Positions 26,486 to 64,000 of a stretch of DNA of 64,000 nt are shown here, in pieces. Within the stretch, counting starts at the first letter, position 1, and each line of letters begins with the position of its first letter. The notes under the pieces are model-generated. The model saw nothing but the letters and a program-made list of their open reading frames with translations, was not told the origin of the DNA and searched no databases. This DNA comes from Streptococcus parasanguinis (GTDB lineage: Bacteria > Bacillota > Bacilli > Lactobacillales > Streptococcaceae): positions 1,020,501 through 1,084,500 of the forward strand of contig NZ_CP134147.1 in NCBI RefSeq assembly GCF_032163505.1, in the 5' to 3' direction. A program made the translations under genes and the position numbers.

Positions 26486-27184
26486 ATGATTCCAGCTTAC
26501 ATTCAAATCCATGATCAGATTAAGTCTGAGATTGATCAAAAAATATGGAAAATCGGGGAGCGTCTTCCCAGCGAACGCGATCTAGCTGAGAAATTTCAAG
26601 TGAGTCGGATGACGCTTCGTCAGGCCATTACCCTTCTGGTTGAAGAAGGAGTGCTTGAAAGACGAGTAGGAAGTGGCACATTTATCACTAGCACGCGCGT
26701 CCAAGAAAAAATGCGAGGCACAACCAGTTTTACAGAAATTATGAAATCGCAAGGCAAGGAACCTTCTAGCCAAGTGATTTCTTACCGTAAAACTATTCCT
26801 AGCCTCCAAGAAGTGGACAAATTGGGCATTGATAAGACAGAAACCATCATTCGGATGGAGCGGGTCCGGTATGCCGATGGGATCCCTGTTGTTTATGAAG
26901 TGGCCTCTATTCCAGAGAAATTTATTAAGAATTTCAATCGTGAAGAGGTTACCAGCCATTTCTTCCAAACCTTGGAGCGTCATGGCTATAAGATTGGGAA
27001 GTCGCACCAGACCATCTATGCGCGATTGGCCAAGGATAAGATTGCGGAGTACTTACAGATTTCAAAAGGGCAGGCTATTTTAGGTCTGACACAGGTTTCC
27101 TATTTTGAAGATGGGACGGCTTTTGAGTATGTAAAAAGTCAGTATGTCGGCGAGCGCTTCGAATTTTATTTAGAAAATAACTAA
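26486..27184 (+). CDS. GntR-family regulator with UTRA domain
   Basis: 232 residues. N-terminal winged helix (residues 5-70: IPAYIQIHDQIKSEI, LPSERDLAEKFQVSRMTLRQ, GSGTFI) and a C-terminal UTRA ligand domain, so of the HutC type. Such proteins bind sugars, phosphorylated sugars or other small effectors. It is divergent from guaA and lies directly upstream of the five-gene biosynthetic cluster, so it could regulate either; a similar gene also accompanies guaA in streptococci that I believe lack the cluster. Confidence 0.9.
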   Translation: MIPAYIQIHDQIKSEIDQKIWKIGERLPSERDLAEKFQVSRMTLRQAITLLVEEGVLERRVGSGTFITSTRVQEKMRGTTSFTEIMKSQGKEPSSQVISYRKTIPSLQEVDKLGIDKTETIIRMERVRYADGIPVVYEVASIPEKFIKNFNREEVTSHFFQTLERHGYKIGKSHQTIYARLAKDKIAEYLQISKGQAILGLTQVSYFEDGTAFEYVKSQYVGERFEFYLENN

Positions 27185-27412: not shown

Positions 27413-28690
27413 ATGAAAAAAATTAAAATCGATGTGGTAGCTGTTCCCTTGAGTGGGCATCTGTACCCAACTTTAAATCTCGTTAAACCCTTATTAGATG
27501 ATCCAACTATGGAAATCCGAGTTTTCACGGGTCCTCAGAAAAAAGCCGTCGCAGAAAGTCTCGGCTTCACGGTCGTTCCGATTCTAGAGGACAAAGTAGA
27601 AGAATTTGAACGTGTGGCTAATAACGATAAAAAATACAATCTCTTTTCAGCTTATCGGCAATTGTCTAGGAGTCTTGATTTGATTAATCATGTATCGGAT
27701 CAATTGCTAGAGGAGTGGCGTGTCAACCGTCCAGATATTGTCATTGCTGACTTTATCACTCTATCAGCAGGCTTTGTGGCAGAAGAGTTGGAAATTCCTT
27801 GGATTACCACCATGGCAACCCAATTTGCAATCGAAACTCCTTATGGTCCTCCTTGCTTCTTCGGAGGGATGGGAATCGCGCGCACGAAGAAGGAAGAGAA
27901 GATCCAAGCACTATGCCGTAAACTCACGCGCATTGGAAAATACTGTGGGGCTTTCCTCTTACGCAAACGCTTAAAACGTTACAATTTCAAGTTGTACAAT
28001 CAAAATGGAGTGGAGACCATCTACTCTCCTTATGCCATCTTTGGAATTGGTATGATGGAGCTAGAGTTGAAGACACATTTCCCTCATCAATATGCGTGGC
28101 TTGGCCCTTTGGGGACTTCTCTTGAAAAAGCAGAAGATTATCCTTTAGACATCAGTTCTTACGAGGACAAGACGAAGGTACTCGTGACATGTGGAACCCA
28201 GTTGCCTTGGGCAAAGGAGAATTTGCTAGAACAAACCAAGCAGTTGGCCAAAGAGCATCCAGAATGTCACTTTTTCGTCACCTTAGGAGATGGGGCAAAA
28301 GACTTTTCTGAAGAAGATGTAGCACCAAATGTGACGCTCGTCTCTTATCTGCCTTACAAAGAATATATTCCGCAGATGGACTATGTCATTCACCATGGAG
28401 GAGCTGGAATCTTTTATCAGTGTATCGAATTTAAAAAACCAGCCTTGATCTTGCCACATGATTATGACCAATTTGACTATGCGATTCGAGGAGTAGAAGC
28501 AGGAATTGCCTTTCAAGCTCATCGCAATCGCACCGAAGAGATTCAAGCAGGTTTTAATGCCCTATTAGAAAAAGAATCTTGGGAAAAGTTAGAAAGACTA
28601 AACAAACTTTCAAAAACCTACAAGCCGTTGGATACCTTGGAGTTTGAAATTCAACGATTATTAAGACGTGGAACGGATGGGAAACTATGA
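27413..28690 (+). CDS. Glycosyltransferase of the MGT/UGT (GT1) type
   Basis: 425 residues, GT-B fold without signal or membrane segments. The N-terminal half begins VVAVPLSGHLYPTLNL (His16 is the usual catalytic base position), and the C-terminal donor-binding motif is HHGGAGIFYQ at 327-336 followed by LPHDYDQFDYA (347-357), the D/Q pair that normally contacts the sugar of a UDP-sugar. The acceptor is unknown; relatives glycosylate macrolides, lipids and flavonoids. It overlaps the next gene by 4 bases (ATGA) and leads the five-gene operon. Confidence 0.88.
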   Translation: MKKIKIDVVAVPLSGHLYPTLNLVKPLLDDPTMEIRVFTGPQKKAVAESLGFTVVPILEDKVEEFERVANNDKKYNLFSAYRQLSRSLDLINHVSDQLLEEWRVNRPDIVIADFITLSAGFVAEELEIPWITTMATQFAIETPYGPPCFFGGMGIARTKKEEKIQALCRKLTRIGKYCGAFLLRKRLKRYNFKLYNQNGVETIYSPYAIFGIGMMELELKTHFPHQYAWLGPLGTSLEKAEDYPLDISSYEDKTKVLVTCGTQLPWAKENLLEQTKQLAKEHPECHFFVTLGDGAKDFSEEDVAPNVTLVSYLPYKEYIPQMDYVIHHGGAGIFYQCIEFKKPALILPHDYDQFDYAIRGVEAGIAFQAHRNRTEEIQAGFNALLEKESWEKLERLNKLSKTYKPLDTLEFEIQRLLRRGTDGKL

Positions 28691-29664
28691 AAATACTTGT
28701 AACAGGTGCGACTGGCTTCCTTGGAAAATATGTGATCGATGAGTTGTTGGCTCACGATTATACCATTGTAGCTTTTGGCCGAAACGAAAAAAATGGGAAA
28801 GCTCTGGAAAATGATCGCGTCCAATTTATCAAAGGGGATTTGAGCTCTATTGAGGAATTAAGACAAGCCTTTCAGTCTGTTGATGCTGTTGTTCATGCAG
28901 GAGCTTTATCTTCCGCCTGGGGACCTTGGAAGGCCTTCTATCAGGCGAATGTAGTTGGTACTAAAAATGTCCTTGAATTGTGTCGTGAATATGCGGTAAA
29001 ACGCTTGGTTTACGTTTCTTCTCCTAGTATTTACGCAGCTGGAAAAGATCAATTAAACATCAAGGAAAGTGATGCTCCAAAAGAAAATCACCTCAACAAT
29101 TACATCCGAAGTAAATTGGCGTCTGAAAAACTTTTTTCTGACTATTCAGATGTGCCAAGTATCATCTTGCGTCCTAGAGGATTATTTGGTGTGGGGGATA
29201 CCAGTATTTTGCCTCGTGTCTTACGCCTCAGTCGAAAAATTGGAATTCCTTTGATTCGAGGAGGAGAGCAGCTCATGGATATGACCTGTGTGGAAAATGT
29301 TGCCCTAGCCATTCGCTTGGCTCTGGAAGCAAAAGAAGCACACGGGCAGGTTTATAATATTACAAATGGGGAACCAAAGACCTTTAAGTATTTGATCGAA
29401 ACCACACTAAAGGGATTGGGAGAGCCGATTCGCTATCGGAAAATTCCGGCAGGTCTTGTAGCAGGTGCGGCCTATAGCCTTGAAGGAGTGTATCGATTAT
29501 TCCATCTGAAAACTGAACCTCCATTGACTCGCTATACCTATTATCTCCTTCGATATAGCCAAACCCTCGATATTCAAAAGGCCCAAACCGAACTTGGCTA
29601 CTATCCAAAAATGACCATTGAAGAAGGGATTGACAACTATGTCCACCATGATCAAGCGCATTGA
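28687..29664 (+). CDS. NAD(P)-dependent 3-beta-HSD-like reductase/epimerase (SDR)
   Basis: 325 residues. Extended short-chain dehydrogenase with the dinucleotide loop GATGFLG (7-13), the VSSPSIYA segment (110-117) and the catalytic Tyr139/Lys143 in NNYIRSK. The SSPS signature is shared with the 3-beta-hydroxysteroid dehydrogenase group, which includes OleD, the reductase of bacterial long-chain olefin synthesis. With the ketoacyl synthase and adenylating enzyme downstream, reduction of a beta-keto acyl product is the most attractive role (inference). Confidence 0.85.
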   Translation: MKILVTGATGFLGKYVIDELLAHDYTIVAFGRNEKNGKALENDRVQFIKGDLSSIEELRQAFQSVDAVVHAGALSSAWGPWKAFYQANVVGTKNVLELCREYAVKRLVYVSSPSIYAAGKDQLNIKESDAPKENHLNNYIRSKLASEKLFSDYSDVPSIILRPRGLFGVGDTSILPRVLRLSRKIGIPLIRGGEQLMDMTCVENVALAIRLALEAKEAHGQVYNITNGEPKTFKYLIETTLKGLGEPIRYRKIPAGLVAGAAYSLEGVYRLFHLKTEPPLTRYTYYLLRYSQTLDIQKAQTELGYYPKMTIEEGIDNYVHHDQAH

Positions 29665-30466
29665 TTATTTTCCAGCAGGCTATTGCAGTAGTCATTCCGG
29701 TCTCTTATTCAAAGGGATTCCGAATGAAAAAATGCAATTTCCAGCAAGTGTCTTTTTGATTCACCACCGTGAAAAAGGCTATATTTTGTACGATACCGGT
29801 TATCACTACGAGATTAAGGAAAAAGCTCGGTATTTTTGGTACCGTCTAGCCACCCCAATGCAGATGAAAAAAGAAGACCAGATCGATTATTTATTGCAAG
29901 AGCGTGGGATTGATCCAGCAGAAATTACTTATGTGATTCTTTCTCATTTGCACCCTGATCATCTCGGTGGAGCAGCCCTTTTTCCAAATGCTCATTTCTT
30001 TGTCAGTCAGGAAGTCTATGAGGTGTACCAAAAACCGAAATTTAAAGATCTAATTTTTAAAGAGTTTTTGCCAGATGATTTCAAAGATCGGGTAACTTGT
30101 CTCAAAGCAGATCAAAGGCATCCTGCTTTCCCCTATCGCCCGACCGCGGATCTTTTTGGAGATGGGAGCATCCTTGTTTCGTCCATCGATGGACATGCGA
30201 GAGGGCAAGGTTGTCTTTATCTGGATGAGCTCAAGCTCTTTATTGGGGCGGATCTTTCTTGGGGAGTAGACCTCTTGCCTTTCACACGGCAAATGCGTCT
30301 CATTCCTTCCTTGGTTCAGGATGATAAGAAGGCTTATTTAAAAGGAGCTGATTTGATGGAAACACTCTTGCAAGATGGTATTCAAGTTGTGGTTAGCCAC
30401 GACCCGCAAGAACGGATTGAAAGGATTTTAAATGAAAAAAACAGTCTTTCTAAAAACCTTTATTGA
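29639..30466 (+). CDS. Metallo-beta-lactamase-fold hydrolase
   Basis: 275 residues. Zinc-binding HxHxDH is HLHPDH at 103-108, followed by further histidines in DGHARGQG and SHDPQ and an acidic residue in GADLSW, so both metals can be bound. It resembles the lactonase-like branch (N-acyl homoserine lactonase type). I choose ATG 29639 with AAGAAGGG 10 bases upstream; an in-frame ATG at 29648 is an alternative. It overlaps the SDR gene by 26 bases and the next gene by 35, so the operon is tightly packed. In the cluster it could open a lactone or release an acyl thioester (inference). Confidence 0.85.
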   Translation: MSTMIKRIDYFPAGYCSSHSGLLFKGIPNEKMQFPASVFLIHHREKGYILYDTGYHYEIKEKARYFWYRLATPMQMKKEDQIDYLLQERGIDPAEITYVILSHLHPDHLGGAALFPNAHFFVSQEVYEVYQKPKFKDLIFKEFLPDDFKDRVTCLKADQRHPAFPYRPTADLFGDGSILVSSIDGHARGQGCLYLDELKLFIGADLSWGVDLLPFTRQMRLIPSLVQDDKKAYLKGADLMETLLQDGIQVVVSHDPQERIERILNEKNSLSKNLY

Positions 30467-31697
30467 AACTAGATGGTGCCATCGATTCCGTTCAAAAGAG
30501 GCCTTGAAGCGATACCAAGATAAACAATTGGCACGCTACCATGCATTTATCACTTCTCAATCCCCCTATTTTCAAACCCATTCTCCCGAATCCTTTGGAA
30601 CCATGGATAAATCGTTTATGATGACACATTTCAATGAACTCAATACCCTAGGGGTGGATCGAGATCAGGCTTTAGAAATGGCGATTCGCGGAGAACAGAC
30701 GCGAGATTTTACTGAGATGAATGGAGAAGTAGCAGTAGGCTTGTCTTCTGGGACTTCAGGCCACCGAGGAGTTTTTGTCACCACAGAAAAAGAAAGAAGT
30801 ATGTGGGCTGCAGCGATTCTAGCCAAGATGCTACCGAAAGGAAAACTGTTTGGTCATCGCATTGCCTTTTTCTTACGAGCGGACAATGAACTCTATCAAA
30901 CCATTAATTCAGGCCTTATTCGCTTGGAATATTTTGATATTTTCAAGGATAGCAAGGAGCATTTAGAGCGCCTCAAAGACTATCAACCAACCATTGTGGT
31001 TGCACCAGCTTCAACCTTGATTGAGTTGGCTAACTTTGTCAGCAATCAGCAACTTGCGATCCAACCCGTCAAGGTTGTCTCTGTCGCAGAGATCCTAGAA
31101 GATCGAGATGCACAGACCATCGCCAAAGCTTTTCAACTAGACAAGGTTGATCAGGTCTACCAAGCGACAGAAGGGTTTTTAGCTTGTACCTGTTCAGAAG
31201 GCAATCTACATCTCAACGAAGATATTTTGTATGTCGAAAAAGAGTATCTAGATGATAACCGCTTTTATCCGATTATTACGGATTTCAAACGAACGAGCCA
31301 ACCCATCTATCGCTACCGCCTCAATGATATTTTGGTGGAAGAAAAGTCCCCTTGCCCTTGTGGTTCCGTCTTTACTCGAATCGCAAAGATTGAAGGACGA
31401 TCGGACGATATCTTCTATTTCAAAAAAGAAGATGGCAGCAGCCAGATGATCTATCCGGATTTTATTCGCCGGTGCATTTTATTCGTCGAAAATATTCAGG
31501 ACTATCAAGTAACTCAGTTGGCAGATGGATCCATTACCATTGCCTTGAGTCACCGGACAGAGTCTATGGAGCAAGCAATCTTTGCTCAATTTGAACTCTT
31601 AGCTCAGCAAAAACAATTCATTCTCCCAAGTATTCAATTTATCGATTACCAATGGGACCCAACACGTAAATTAAAACGTGTTCAACGACTTCAATAA
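30432..31697 (+). CDS. Adenylate-forming enzyme, F390 synthetase/CoA-ligase-like
   Basis: 421 residues, related to coenzyme F390 synthetase and phenylacetate-CoA ligase. The phosphate-binding loop is GLSSGTSGHRG (103-113); YRYRLNDIL and the following CPCG (about residues 312-315) and KIEGRSDDIFYF form the second half of the active site. It should activate a carboxylate as an acyl-AMP. Streptococci make no F420, so the F390 name is only a family label. In the cluster it is the counterpart of OleC, which adenylates a beta-hydroxy acid to form a beta-lactone, although it belongs to a different branch. Confidence 0.82.
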   Translation: MKKTVFLKTFIETRWCHRFRSKEALKRYQDKQLARYHAFITSQSPYFQTHSPESFGTMDKSFMMTHFNELNTLGVDRDQALEMAIRGEQTRDFTEMNGEVAVGLSSGTSGHRGVFVTTEKERSMWAAAILAKMLPKGKLFGHRIAFFLRADNELYQTINSGLIRLEYFDIFKDSKEHLERLKDYQPTIVVAPASTLIELANFVSNQQLAIQPVKVVSVAEILEDRDAQTIAKAFQLDKVDQVYQATEGFLACTCSEGNLHLNEDILYVEKEYLDDNRFYPIITDFKRTSQPIYRYRLNDILVEEKSPCPCGSVFTRIAKIEGRSDDIFYFKKEDGSSQMIYPDFIRRCILFVENIQDYQVTQLADGSITIALSHRTESMEQAIFAQFELLAQQKQFILPSIQFIDYQWDPTRKLKRVQRLQ

Positions 31698-31709
31698 AAG
31701 GAGAATCCT

Positions 31710-32654
31710 ATGACTACTGTAAAAAGACATTTGCAAATTAAAGGCTATGGAACAGCGCTTCCAGCTCATACAGTGACTTTCAAAGACCAGACTCGTTACC
31801 GCGTGAAAGAAGGAGAAGAAACACAGATTGATCTTGCAGCCCGTGCGATCGAAGCTGCTTTAAACCATGCGGGTCTTGAAATGGCAGACATCGACTGCCT
31901 GGTTTCGGCTAGTGCAGTTGGTGTTCAGCCCATCCCTTGTACAGCTGCTTTGATCCATGAGCGCGTGGCCAAGGGACTGACGATTCCTGCCATGGATATC
32001 AATACTACCTGTACCAGTTTTGTATCTGCTTTAAGCACCGTTTCTTATCTGATTGAAGGTGGAGAATACCAACGGGTGCTGATTGTATCCAGTGAAGTAG
32101 GGAGCCTAGGGCTGAATCCTAAACAAAAAGAAAGCTTTGAATTGTTTAGTGATGGAGCTGCAGCCTTTATTTTTGAAGCAACAAAGGAAGATAAAGGAAT
32201 CATTGCCAGTATGCAACGTACCTGGTCTGAGGGAGCCCATGACACCGAAATTCGTGGTGGTTTGACAGCTTATCATCCGAAATTATACTCTGAAGCAACC
32301 AAGACTGATTTCATGTTTGATATGAAAGGGAAGAAGATCCTTTTACTTTCTGCCCGTGTTATTCCAGAAATGTTCCAAGAATTCCAAGAGAAATCAGGCA
32401 TTTCTAAAGATGCTGTAGACTATATTATTCCTCACCAAGCAAGTCGCGCCTTACCACTTGTCATGGACAAATTAGGCGTCGGCAAAGACAAGTACCTCAA
32501 TATTGTCAGTGATTATGGAAATATGGTTTCGGTAGCCGTACCTTTCGGACTAGCCTATGCACTGGATCATGGCTATGTGAAGGAAGGAGATACCATCTTC
32601 TTGATGGGAACTGCAGCAGGGATGACGGTCAATATGTTGGCACTGAAACTTTAA
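31710..32654 (+). CDS. 3-oxoacyl-ACP synthase III-like ketosynthase
   Basis: 314 residues. Thiolase-fold condensing enzyme with the FabH triad: Cys101 (NTTCTSF), His242 (IIPHQAS) and Asn271 (DYGNMVS). It is not inside a fab operon. The N-terminal KGYGTALPAHTVTF and the pairing with an SDR, an adenylating enzyme and a hydrolase suggest a secondary-metabolism ketosynthase such as OleA or a starter-unit enzyme rather than the housekeeping FabH. AAAGGAG is 6 bases before ATG. A terminator follows, ending the five-gene unit. Confidence 0.88.
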   Translation: MTTVKRHLQIKGYGTALPAHTVTFKDQTRYRVKEGEETQIDLAARAIEAALNHAGLEMADIDCLVSASAVGVQPIPCTAALIHERVAKGLTIPAMDINTTCTSFVSALSTVSYLIEGGEYQRVLIVSSEVGSLGLNPKQKESFELFSDGAAAFIFEATKEDKGIIASMQRTWSEGAHDTEIRGGLTAYHPKLYSEATKTDFMFDMKGKKILLLSARVIPEMFQEFQEKSGISKDAVDYIIPHQASRALPLVMDKLGVGKDKYLNIVSDYGNMVSVAVPFGLAYALDHGYVKEGDTIFLMGTAAGMTVNMLALKL

Positions 32655-32693: not shown

Positions 32694-32719
32694 CCCGCTA
32701 GTCTTTAGCGGGCTTTTTT
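32694..32719 (+). terminator. Terminator of the biosynthetic cluster
   Basis: Perfect 7-bp stem CCCGCTA / TAGCGGG with loop GTCTT, then C and six T. Confidence 0.92.
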
Positions 32720-45276: not shown

Positions 45277-46443
45277 TTATGATTGGCGTTGGCCAAAGTC
45301 ATGAATCATTTGTTCCAATTCTTCACGACTAGGTGTAGTAAGCATATAGAGGTAATCTCCCTGAAGTTCCGCAAAGGCCGCTGGCATGTCTTTCTTGACA
45401 CGGAATTGATCATGGTATTTAGCCAAAACTTCATCCTCTGAAAGGACATAGGCTGCATTTGCACGACGAGAAGTTGCCAAGCAATAAAGGGGCTCAAACT
45501 CAGAAGCTGGGAAAGGTTCTCCTGCTACGATGGCAGCATAGCCACGGTACAAATCAATCGAGTGAGCGTAGTTGTAGACATCGATGGTAAAGCCACCTGC
45601 AGGGCGATTATTGTACTCGATCGCAATATAGTCATCCCCATCGCGGAAGAACTCAATGTGGAAGAAACGTTCCTTCATGCCAAAAGCTTTGACAATGGCT
45701 TCCCCGTATTGACGCAATTTTGGATCCATCTCTTTGAGGACATAATAAGAATTGTCCATCTTGTAGAGCATCAAATCGAGTGGCGTATAGGCATAGTCAA
45801 AAGTAGTCGAAAAGACAATATTACCATCGCGATCGACCAGACCATCAAAGGTACAAATCTCGCTAGAAGTGACAAATTTCTCAAAGAAGTACTCTGTATG
45901 GCCATCCCACTCAGCCTTGAAATGGTCCACATCTTCTGGCGTTTCGATCTTGAAGATAGCTGCTGCTCCTACCCCATTGTCAGGCTTAGCAATCAATGGC
46001 AACCCAATCTTCTTCACAGCCTTATCAATGTCTTTTTCTGTTTTAACTACTGCACCAGGTACGACTGGGACTCCAGCCTTCTTGAAGAGTTTCTTCATTT
46101 CTGATTTGAACTTGGTTTTCTTCAGATCTTTTGGCTTAGCCCCGAAGACATTGAATTGCTCCCGAAGCGCCGCATCCAATTCCAACCAGTATTCATTGTG
46201 GGATTCGATACGGTCGATTGGACCATGTTTGTAAAAGAGAAAGGCTACCGCACGCTTCACTTCATCCAGATTTTCCAAATTTTCAACACGGAAATATTCT
46301 GTTAAGCTGTTGCGCAAAGGCTCATCTAACTGTTCATATGGCTCTTGACCAATTCCCAAGACAGTGATCCCTTTATTAGCCAATTCAATTGTAAATTGTT
46401 GGAAGTTTTGTGGGTAATATGGTGAAATAACGATATAATTCAT
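45277..46443 (-). CDS. ATP-grasp carboxylate-amine ligase
   Basis: 388 residues with the ATP-grasp fold: KPDNGVGAAAIFKI near 153-166 is the flexible phosphate-binding loop, EKFVTSSEICTFDG the adenine side, and EFFRDGDDYIAIEYNNRPAGG (about 258-278) the metal-binding end. Such enzymes join a carboxylate to an amine or amino acid via an acyl phosphate. It is not a known purine or peptidoglycan enzyme. Third gene of an operon after two esterases, 22 bases from the second, suggesting a small pathway making or processing a peptide-like or ester-linked molecule. Confidence 0.85.
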   Translation of the reverse strand: MNYIVISPYYPQNFQQFTIELANKGITVLGIGQEPYEQLDEPLRNSLTEYFRVENLENLDEVKRAVAFLFYKHGPIDRIESHNEYWLELDAALREQFNVFGAKPKDLKKTKFKSEMKKLFKKAGVPVVPGAVVKTEKDIDKAVKKIGLPLIAKPDNGVGAAAIFKIETPEDVDHFKAEWDGHTEYFFEKFVTSSEICTFDGLVDRDGNIVFSTTFDYAYTPLDLMLYKMDNSYYVLKEMDPKLRQYGEAIVKAFGMKERFFHIEFFRDGDDYIAIEYNNRPAGGFTIDVYNYAHSIDLYRGYAAIVAGEPFPASEFEPLYCLATSRRANAAYVLSEDEVLAKYHDQFRVKKDMPAAFAELQGDYLYMLTTPSREELEQMIHDFGQRQS

Positions 46444-62797: not shown

Positions 62798-64000
62798 TTA
62801 CATCAAAGGTCCAATCAGAGAAAAGAGATAACCACCTAGACGATGAGCCATAGGCATTTTTGACAAACTTTCCAGAGTAACTTCCTCTGAGAGAGCCTGG
62901 GTTTTCTCAAAATCTTCTTCAATTTTAAGCACTTCCAGATTATTGTAGAGATAAACCCCATCTTCGAAATTTTGATAGAGACTTCGGTAGTCTGTGTTAA
63001 TGGTTCCTACAACAGCTTGTTGGCTATCAGAAACATAAACCTTAGCATGGACAAAGCCTGGGGTATAACGGAAAATACGGACCCCAGCATCCAAGAGGGC
63101 TTTAAAATAGGTCGTCGCAATATCAAAGGCATACTGTTTATCTGCAATCCCTGGCATAATGATACGAACATCCACACCTCGTCTGGCCGCAAATGTCATG
63201 GCTCGAACCAATTCATCATCCAAGATCAGATACGGCGTCATGATATAGACATAATTAGTAGATGTATTCAGAAGATGTAAATAAACATTTTCTGCAACCT
63301 TGTGGTAGGTCAACGGTGAATTGCCATAAGGAAGAACCAAGCCTTGACCCTCTCTTTTTTGAGGTTTTTCTTGTAGATAGTGCTCCATATCCGTTTTATC
63401 CTCTATTCCAGTCACTTTCCACATGGTCAAAAAGAGAGCTTTCAGCGATTGAACTGCTGAACCATCTAATCGAAGGGCCGTATCCTTCCAATGACCAAAG
63501 CGTTCTAGTTTATTGACATACTCATCAGCGATATTAACGCCACCAGTATAAGCAACTTGACCATCAATCACTGTAATCTTTCGATGGTCTCGGTAATTGT
63601 AATAGGTTGATAGAATGGGCTTGACTGGTGAGAAGGTCTGAGCTTTTATCCCAACCTTGTGCAATCGCTCGATATAATCGTAGGACAAGGTAGTCATCTC
63701 ATTCATCCCATCAAACATGACACGAACATCCAGACCTGCCTTGGCCTTCTCCTCCAAAATGGCTAAAATCTCGCCCCACATGATCCCTTCGTCAATAATG
63801 AAATATTCCATAAAGATATAACGTTCCGCCTTTTTCAAATCCTCCAACAAGGCTGGTAGCATGTCATCTCCAAGTGGAAAATAGGTGACCTCTGTGTCTC
63901 TGTAGATAGGAAACTGGGCTGGACTATGCTCCAGAAAATAAGCTAATTTCTGTAATTGGCTATCACTTTGGGATAAATAATCAGCAACTTCTGGATCGGT
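62798..64000 (-). CDS. cls: Cardiolipin synthase, 5' partial
   Basis: The frame is open to the window end; the protein reads ...PIYRDTEVTYFPLGDDM before the first internal ATG at 63862, which is clearly inside the family sequence, so the gene starts outside. Two phospholipase-D motifs are seen: DHRKITVIDG and VHAKVYVSD. It joins phosphatidylglycerol molecules into cardiolipin at the membrane. Confidence 0.94.
   Translation of the reverse strand, partial: TDPEVADYLSQSDSQLQKLAYFLEHSPAQFPIYRDTEVTYFPLGDDMLPALLEDLKKAERYIFMEYFIIDEGIMWGEILAILEEKAKAGLDVRVMFDGMNEMTTLSYDYIERLHKVGIKAQTFSPVKPILSTYYNYRDHRKITVIDGQVAYTGGVNIADEYVNKLERFGHWKDTALRLDGSAVQSLKALFLTMWKVTGIEDKTDMEHYLQEKPQKREGQGLVLPYGNSPLTYHKVAENVYLHLLNTSTNYVYIMTPYLILDDELVRAMTFAARRGVDVRIIMPGIADKQYAFDIATTYFKALLDAGVRIFRYTPGFVHAKVYVSDSQQAVVGTINTDYRSLYQNFEDGVYLYNNLEVLKIEEDFEKTQALSEEVTLESLSKMPMAHRLGGYLFSLIGPLM

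Follow-up and report, generated by a model that had tools for sequence, protein, structure and literature searches.

A conserved four-gene core with an MxnB/CorB-like ketosynthase in Streptococcus parasanguinis and other bacteria

The OleABCD enzymes comprise a ketosynthase, a 3beta-HSD-like reductase, an adenylating enzyme and an alpha/beta-hydrolase. In a genome survey, ole clusters are reported from 1082 genomes, none of them in Firmicutes (PMC7158056), and according to a second study a Glu117-Pro pair is present in all but two aligned OleA proteins (PMC7064751). Two acyl chains are also joined in myxopyronin and corallopyronin synthesis by the ketosynthases MxnB and CorB. A paper on malleicyprol, a further chain-fusing route, lists these two in the small set of head-to-head examples known so far (PMC12304814). 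Here we describe a cluster of five genes at positions 27413 to 32654 of a window of 64,000 nucleotides (the whole stretch of DNA that was analysed) from Streptococcus parasanguinis, contig NZ_CP134147.1. A preliminary description had likened the cluster to an Ole-type pathway with a glycosyltransferase. Four of its genes form a fixed core whose ketosynthase is closest to MxnB and CorB, and the fifth is exchangeable.

The core consists of an extended 3beta-HSD/OleD-like NAD(P) reductase of the short-chain dehydrogenase/reductase type (SDR; 28687..29664; PF01370 143 bits, PF01073 117 bits), a metallo-beta-lactamase-fold, lactonase-like hydrolase (MBL; 29639..30466; PF00753 71 bits), a PaaK-like adenylate-forming enzyme of the family TIGR02304 (ADE; 30432..31697) and a KAS III-fold ketosynthase of the MxnB/CorB group (KAS; 31710..32654; ACP_syn_III). 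It is preceded by a GT-B-type glycosyltransferase (GT; 27413..28690; EryCIII-like_C, PF06722, 39.9 bits; GT28_C, PF04101, 32.5 bits) as decorating gene, and all five open frames lie on the plus strand. In total 115 loci were read, namely 35 genome stretches and 80 named loci which are rich in streptococci because they are the best 80 of 463. SDR, MBL, ADE and KAS occur together on one strand in 108 of the 110 loci with a strong TIGR02304 match (two duplicate pairs, L204=L077 and L205=L124, included), and the two exceptions, L131 and L143, are contigs of 3.8 kb. The concern that the genes might rarely occur together elsewhere is thus removed. The order SDR-MBL-ADE is invariant across the 108 core loci; KAS follows ADE in 83 of them and comes first in 25, every one of which has an ATP-grasp gene. 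Near the five weaker TIGR02304 relatives (L193-L197) tblastn found no core gene; two of these, L193 and L194, are just above the family cut-off (290 and 282 bits).

Among 247 streptococcal genomes, sampled one per species, ADE and KAS are present in the identical 66 (in G067 the KAS match spans 229 of 314 residues). TIGR02304 exceeds its cut-off in 57 of 348 class-wide and 8 of 348 phylum-wide genomes, and the core recurs in Fusobacteriota and Enterococcus. The genes co-occur far beyond chance, with Fisher p-values that ignore shared ancestry. Since the chromosomal sites differ, the core looks like a portable unit: it lies between guaA-gntR and ylxM in S. parasanguinis, after rpsD in the S. 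sanguinis locus L102, and beside genes for an Fe-alcohol dehydrogenase and a cardiolipin synthase in L078 and similar loci.

The best PDB sequence matches of the KAS are MxnB (127 bits), CorB (120 bits) and the FabH of S. aureus (117 bits), and MxnB is also its best structural match. In the tree the KAS groups with MxnB and CorB (support 98/96). The OleA clade stands apart from the cluster KAS (100/100), and so does a FabH clade (100/98) of 16 rows, 13 of which are paralogues assigned to FabH from BLAST. Seven divergent paralogue rows (L255, L270-L275) are omitted from this tree; in a quick tree that includes them the cluster KAS are held together at 96, and the group of cluster KAS, MxnB/CorB, OleA and L271 at 81 (SH-aLRT). 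The triad Cys101/His242/Asn271 was found in 109 of 109 relatives. At the position of OleA Glu117 the cluster KAS have isoleucine (102) or leucine (7) and in no case glutamate (n = 109), the next proline being kept in all of them, whereas Glu-Pro is found there in ten of ten control OleA proteins. By clade, Cys-His-Asn triad and missing glutamate the KAS is assigned, as a classification at the level of sequence, to the MxnB/CorB group. It also shares with MxnB and CorB a stretch around 'TEIRGG' which is shortened in S. aureus FabH. However, the identity to these two proteins is 27-29 %, no type I polyketide synthase was seen beside the core in the loci read, and the partners linked to the core KAS are instead the SDR, ADE and MBL. 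An identity as housekeeping FabH was considered and rejected on the basis of the tree; the genome's own FabH is encoded elsewhere, beside a PP-binding gene (G000:C1:465581). Together with the linkage of the genes in other genomes, this upholds the earlier proposal of a dedicated pathway of the acyl-chain type.

A possible Ole-type descent was examined with controls from ten Micrococcales genomes, each recognised by an OleA that carries Glu-Pro and by an OleD gene at a distance of a few kb. OleB-OleC was seen in five of the seven control frames scanned; the frames of L235 and L237 held the SDR alone, and L238-L240 lay outside the scan. The cluster SDR carries GATGFLG and YxxxK, which we take to be the characteristic motifs of such reductases. 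Its best NCBIfam models are two OleD families with 219 (NF042422) and 194 bits, at a cut-off of 580 each, followed by HpnA with 109 bits. Taken alone this cut-off is strict, because the control OleD proteins reach just 262-314 bits against NF042422. The best PDB match is NSDHL (6jkg, 98 bits). In the SDR tree the cluster reductases (18 rows, 90/69) fall on the side of OleD, NSDHL and two further paralogues, with the sugar epimerases apart (100/98), and the ten OleD proteins form a separate clade (100/100).

The ADE reaches 535.6 bits against the NCBIfam equivalog TIGR02304 (cut-off 251.9) and about 30 bits against the PaaK models, which argues against a place in a known degradation pathway. 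It contains SSGTSG, TEG, GRSDD and a C-terminal lysine, presumably the usual motifs of adenylate-forming enzymes. TIGR02304 is labelled as F390 synthetase-related without a named pathway; the ADE is a clear member, and whereas the model gives a name only, the protein is tied here to a fixed four-gene unit. No Pfam family was matched by the ADE at 1e-3, in contrast to the control OleB-OleC frames with PF00501 at 136-147 bits. In summary, the cluster resembles OleABCD in combining the same classes of activity in one operon and in an SDR nearest to OleD, but it differs in the KAS without Glu117, the PaaK-like ADE, a metallo-hydrolase in place of the alpha/beta-hydrolase and the extra decorating genes. 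A genuine ole cluster was rejected, and with it an Ole-type descent, on account of the missing glutamate, the KAS outside the OleA clade, the SDR outside the OleD clade and the ADE without PF00501.

In the MBL the metal ligands H103, H105, D107, H108, H186, D205 and H254 are invariant in 33 of 33 proteins. Lactonases are the first 26 of the best 50 Foldseek matches listed for its AF2 model (pLDDT 94.9), two of them bearing that name only in another search with the MBL. The model fold and the dinuclear-type ligands (HxHxDH, His, Asp, His) are those of the acyl-homoserine lactone (AHL) lactonases AiiA, AhlX and AttM. The identity to these enzymes, however, is 18-23 %, and the NCBIfam scores stay far below the family cut-offs (AttM 75 of 390 bits, AiiA 55 of 375 bits). 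In addition, the MBL has a conserved Trp208 at the site that we take to hold the catalytic tyrosine of AiiA. Judged from the model, the enzyme probably hydrolyses a lactone or an ester.

Complete catalytic motifs had been claimed for all five proteins. They are present in KAS, MBL, ADE and SDR, while the class of the GT is assigned from its two Pfam matches; against TIGR01426 it scores 59 bits, below the cut-off of 260. A relative of the GT occurs in 65 of the 66 core-bearing streptococcal genomes and in 3 of the 181 core-free ones. In the only core-bearing streptococcus that lacks it (G033), matches of the ATP-grasp and GNAT type take its place (L200). Beside the core, the 108 loci carry a GT in 66 cases, an ATP-grasp gene in 26 (17 with a GNAT transferase), a nonribosomal peptide synthetase (NRPS)-like gene with FabF in three and, in one, a second reductase, a GT21-type glycosyltransferase and a hydrolase-like gene (SDR2-GT21-hydrolase) without GT. 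In one further locus (L105) the tentative NRPS mark is a match to a nearby AMP-binding gene. No decorating gene was recognised next to the core in the remaining 11 loci, of which seven are named S. sanguinis, and a unit of five genes was rejected for this reason. The glycosyltransferase is therefore not the fixed component it had been thought to be: the fixed unit is the four-enzyme core, and the decorating gene is exchangeable. ATP-grasp, GNAT and NRPS-like genes were identified through representatives, whose Pfam matches range from weak to clear.

The ATP-grasp gene, with or without GNAT, replaces the GT in other genomes of the class Bacilli (L173-L192 and others) and in one Streptococcus. 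In three Lachnospiraceae loci (L119, L121, L127) an NRPS-like gene precedes the core and a FabF-type ketosynthase gene follows it, with an acyl carrier protein (ACP) gene between them in L121, the locus scanned; these neighbours are a hint that the core acts on carrier proteins. A GT remnant of 121 residues with a stop was found in G128 (L279:6635-6997), no other core gene being found within the surrounding 15 kb, and is a sign of cluster loss.

From these properties we tentatively favour, with somewhat less than even confidence, a pathway in which the core joins two acyl chains head to head by a ketosynthase of the MxnB/CorB type, followed by reduction, activation, lactone opening and addition of a sugar; every catalytic step of it is inferred. 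Cys101 of the KAS would accept one chain from the acyl carrier protein of the cell, to be joined to a second chain that is already beta-keto or malonyl-activated. This is proposed because there is no glutamate base and the streptococcal type of KAS is without the Trp-bearing segment of FabH. The SDR would then convert the keto group of the joined product to a hydroxyl, and the TIGR02304 enzyme may adenylate the carboxylate, either to close a ring or to allow a transfer. The metallo-hydrolase would open a lactone or release the product, and the GT would add a sugar to a hydroxyl or carboxyl group. In other lineages the last step would be replaced by the action of an NRPS-like module or of an ATP-grasp ligase, the latter often accompanied by a GNAT transferase. 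The predicted product is a sugar-tagged lipid. The idea that two acyl units are joined, already put forward in the preliminary description, thus stays plausible, but by an MxnB/CorB-like instead of an OleA-type ketosynthase.

A second GT of the same genome, 42 % identical to the first, is encoded about 70 kb ahead of the cluster. It belongs to a block SDR2-GT21-hydrolase-like-GT outside the window, at about G000:C1 974198-978005 (L276:6199-10006). The block is located directly upstream of the core in L115-L118, L172 and L206 (Enterococcus, Leptotrichia and two further genomes, one of which is the streptococcus G130), and in the Fusobacterium locus L123 it has the same position minus the GT. 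Six of the GT loci among the 108 also hold SDR2-GT21-hydrolase. GT21 is found in 22 of the 66 core-bearing streptococcal genomes, 44 being without it, as against 2 of the 181 core-free ones. These two, G135 and G192 (L280), have neither ADE nor KAS, and because of them the link between GT21 and the core is strong and not strict; the block itself was read in G135. Eleven S. sanguinis-type genomes have their GT relative only far away from the core; all eleven contain GT21, and the block was read in one (G046). In G070 the GT is unlinked and GT21 is absent. A role of SDR2 as mycolate reductase was considered and is not relied on here: the Enterococcus SDR2 scores best with that model (127 bits), but the copy of the present genome reaches 82 bits there against 102 for a generic SDR. 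The protein of 222 amino acids in the block gave no Pfam or PDB match; as a guess from inspection by eye, the conserved Ser, Asp and His residues would fit an alpha/beta-hydrolase.

The second block is likely to be the other half of the pathway. On a bolder reading, which we consider rather unlikely, both parts would form one pathway of 8-9 genes by which oral bacteria make an undescribed glycosylated lipid with two chains, akin to a mycolate or ceramide. It would be encoded by a single operon SDR2-GT21-hydrolase-GT-SDR-MBL-ADE-KAS in Enterococcus, Leptotrichia and one Streptococcus. In S. parasanguinis and S. sanguinis it would be divided between two loci, which in the former are about 70 kb apart. 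The chain-fusing ketosynthase would build the skeleton, and the head-group modules (sugars, ATP-grasp/GNAT, NRPS) would be interchangeable by lineage.

Of the other explanations, a FabH-like variant survives best, unlikely as we take it to be. Here the KAS III would add a malonyl unit to one activated acid, the SDR would reduce the product, the MBL would act as a thioesterase and the GT would yield a glycosylated 3-hydroxy acid. Parallels are presumably given by rhamnolipid synthesis with its RhlB-like GT class and by PqsA/PqsD/PqsE of the Pseudomonas quinolone signal (PQS), a set which we take to combine an adenylating enzyme, a KAS III and an MBL. The intact triad would suit such a reaction, and FabH rows top the Foldseek listing for the KAS. 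The position outside the FabH clade argues against it, as does the lack, in the streptococcal type of KAS, of the FabH segment whose tryptophan we assume to bind coenzyme A. The MBL, moreover, is lactonase-like, and PqsE appears at row 50 of the best 50 matches listed.

Head-to-head joining of two fatty chains also has to be weighed against activation of an aromatic or short acid by the ADE, leading to a small polyketide that is then glycosylated or joined to amino acids. The PaaK/F390-synthetase-like character of the ADE, for which FlxY (flexirubin) is the next NCBIfam model at 51 bits, the weak likeness of the GT to macrolide GTs, and the NRPS-like, FabF and ACP genes that adjoin the core in Lachnospiraceae are consistent with this. 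However, the best PDB match of the ADE, the PaaK-type 4r1l, reaches merely 36.8 bits, so that a substrate cannot be read from it, and in Enterococcus the neighbouring GT21-type and SDR genes look as if they act on lipids; we regard this route as improbable. Very unlikely is an Ole-like beta-lactone or olefin made by unrelated or distant enzymes in place of OleABCD, with the MBL in the role of OleB: one enzyme per Ole activity class, the likeness of SDR and MBL to OleD and lactonases, and the survey without a Firmicutes ole cluster (PMC7158056), which makes a substitute conceivable, are opposed by the KAS without Glu117, by the ADE without the PF00501 of control OleC and by the linked glycosyl, ATP-grasp and GNAT genes, which indicate a polar product and not a hydrocarbon.

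A literature search, with most subscription journals outside it, found no paper on the gene family or cluster, and a search of the glycolipid literature found nothing relevant by title. We know of no product of such a cluster, nor, to our knowledge, are oral streptococci noted for secondary lipids. Each enzyme comes from a known superfamily; what is new, as far as we have seen, is that they are combined in a fixed set with an MxnB-like ketosynthase. Roughly one in four of the streptococcal genomes sampled retains the core. A surface glycolipid, if that is the product, could matter for adhesion in plaque, co-aggregation or recognition by the host. The idea of a two-chain ketosynthase would extend from myxobacterial antibiotics to a compact, genetically tractable system, for which TIGR02304 is a ready marker in genome mining.

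The gene layout agrees with the earlier account of overlapping or nearly touching genes with one terminator. GT and SDR overlap by 4 bases, SDR and MBL by 26 if the MBL starts at the ATG at 29639, which was chosen over the TTG at 29618 given by the open reading frame program. The MBL ends 35 bases inside ADE, and ADE and KAS are separated by 12 bases. By eye, a purine-rich stretch resembling a ribosome-binding site precedes all five starts. The shared intrinsic terminator on the plus strand (32694..32712; stem of 8 pairs, loop of 3 bases, T-run), 3' of KAS, has the longest stem among the 12 terminator-like sites between 25000 and 34500, where shuffling gave a mean of 8.5. The genome comprises 2.13 Mb in two contigs, and the window ADE is 97-98 % identical to that of named S. 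parasanguinis records. Downstream of the cluster follow ylxM (NCBIfam) and, by eye, an ffh-like frame; upstream are gntR (26486-27184; Pfam) and a guaA-like frame recognised by eye. GntR was rejected as a member of the unit: it was matched in 15 of 80 loci, the search not extending to genomes without the core, and looks local because all 15 share the same adjoining guaA of 521 amino acids.

Two further genes of the window lie on the minus strand. An orphan ATP-grasp-like protein with weak family matches (best 37 bits) is encoded at 45277-46443 within a run of minus-strand genes. At 62798-63862 a cardiolipin-synthase-like protein of 354 amino acids covers the C-terminal 350 of 483 model positions alone.

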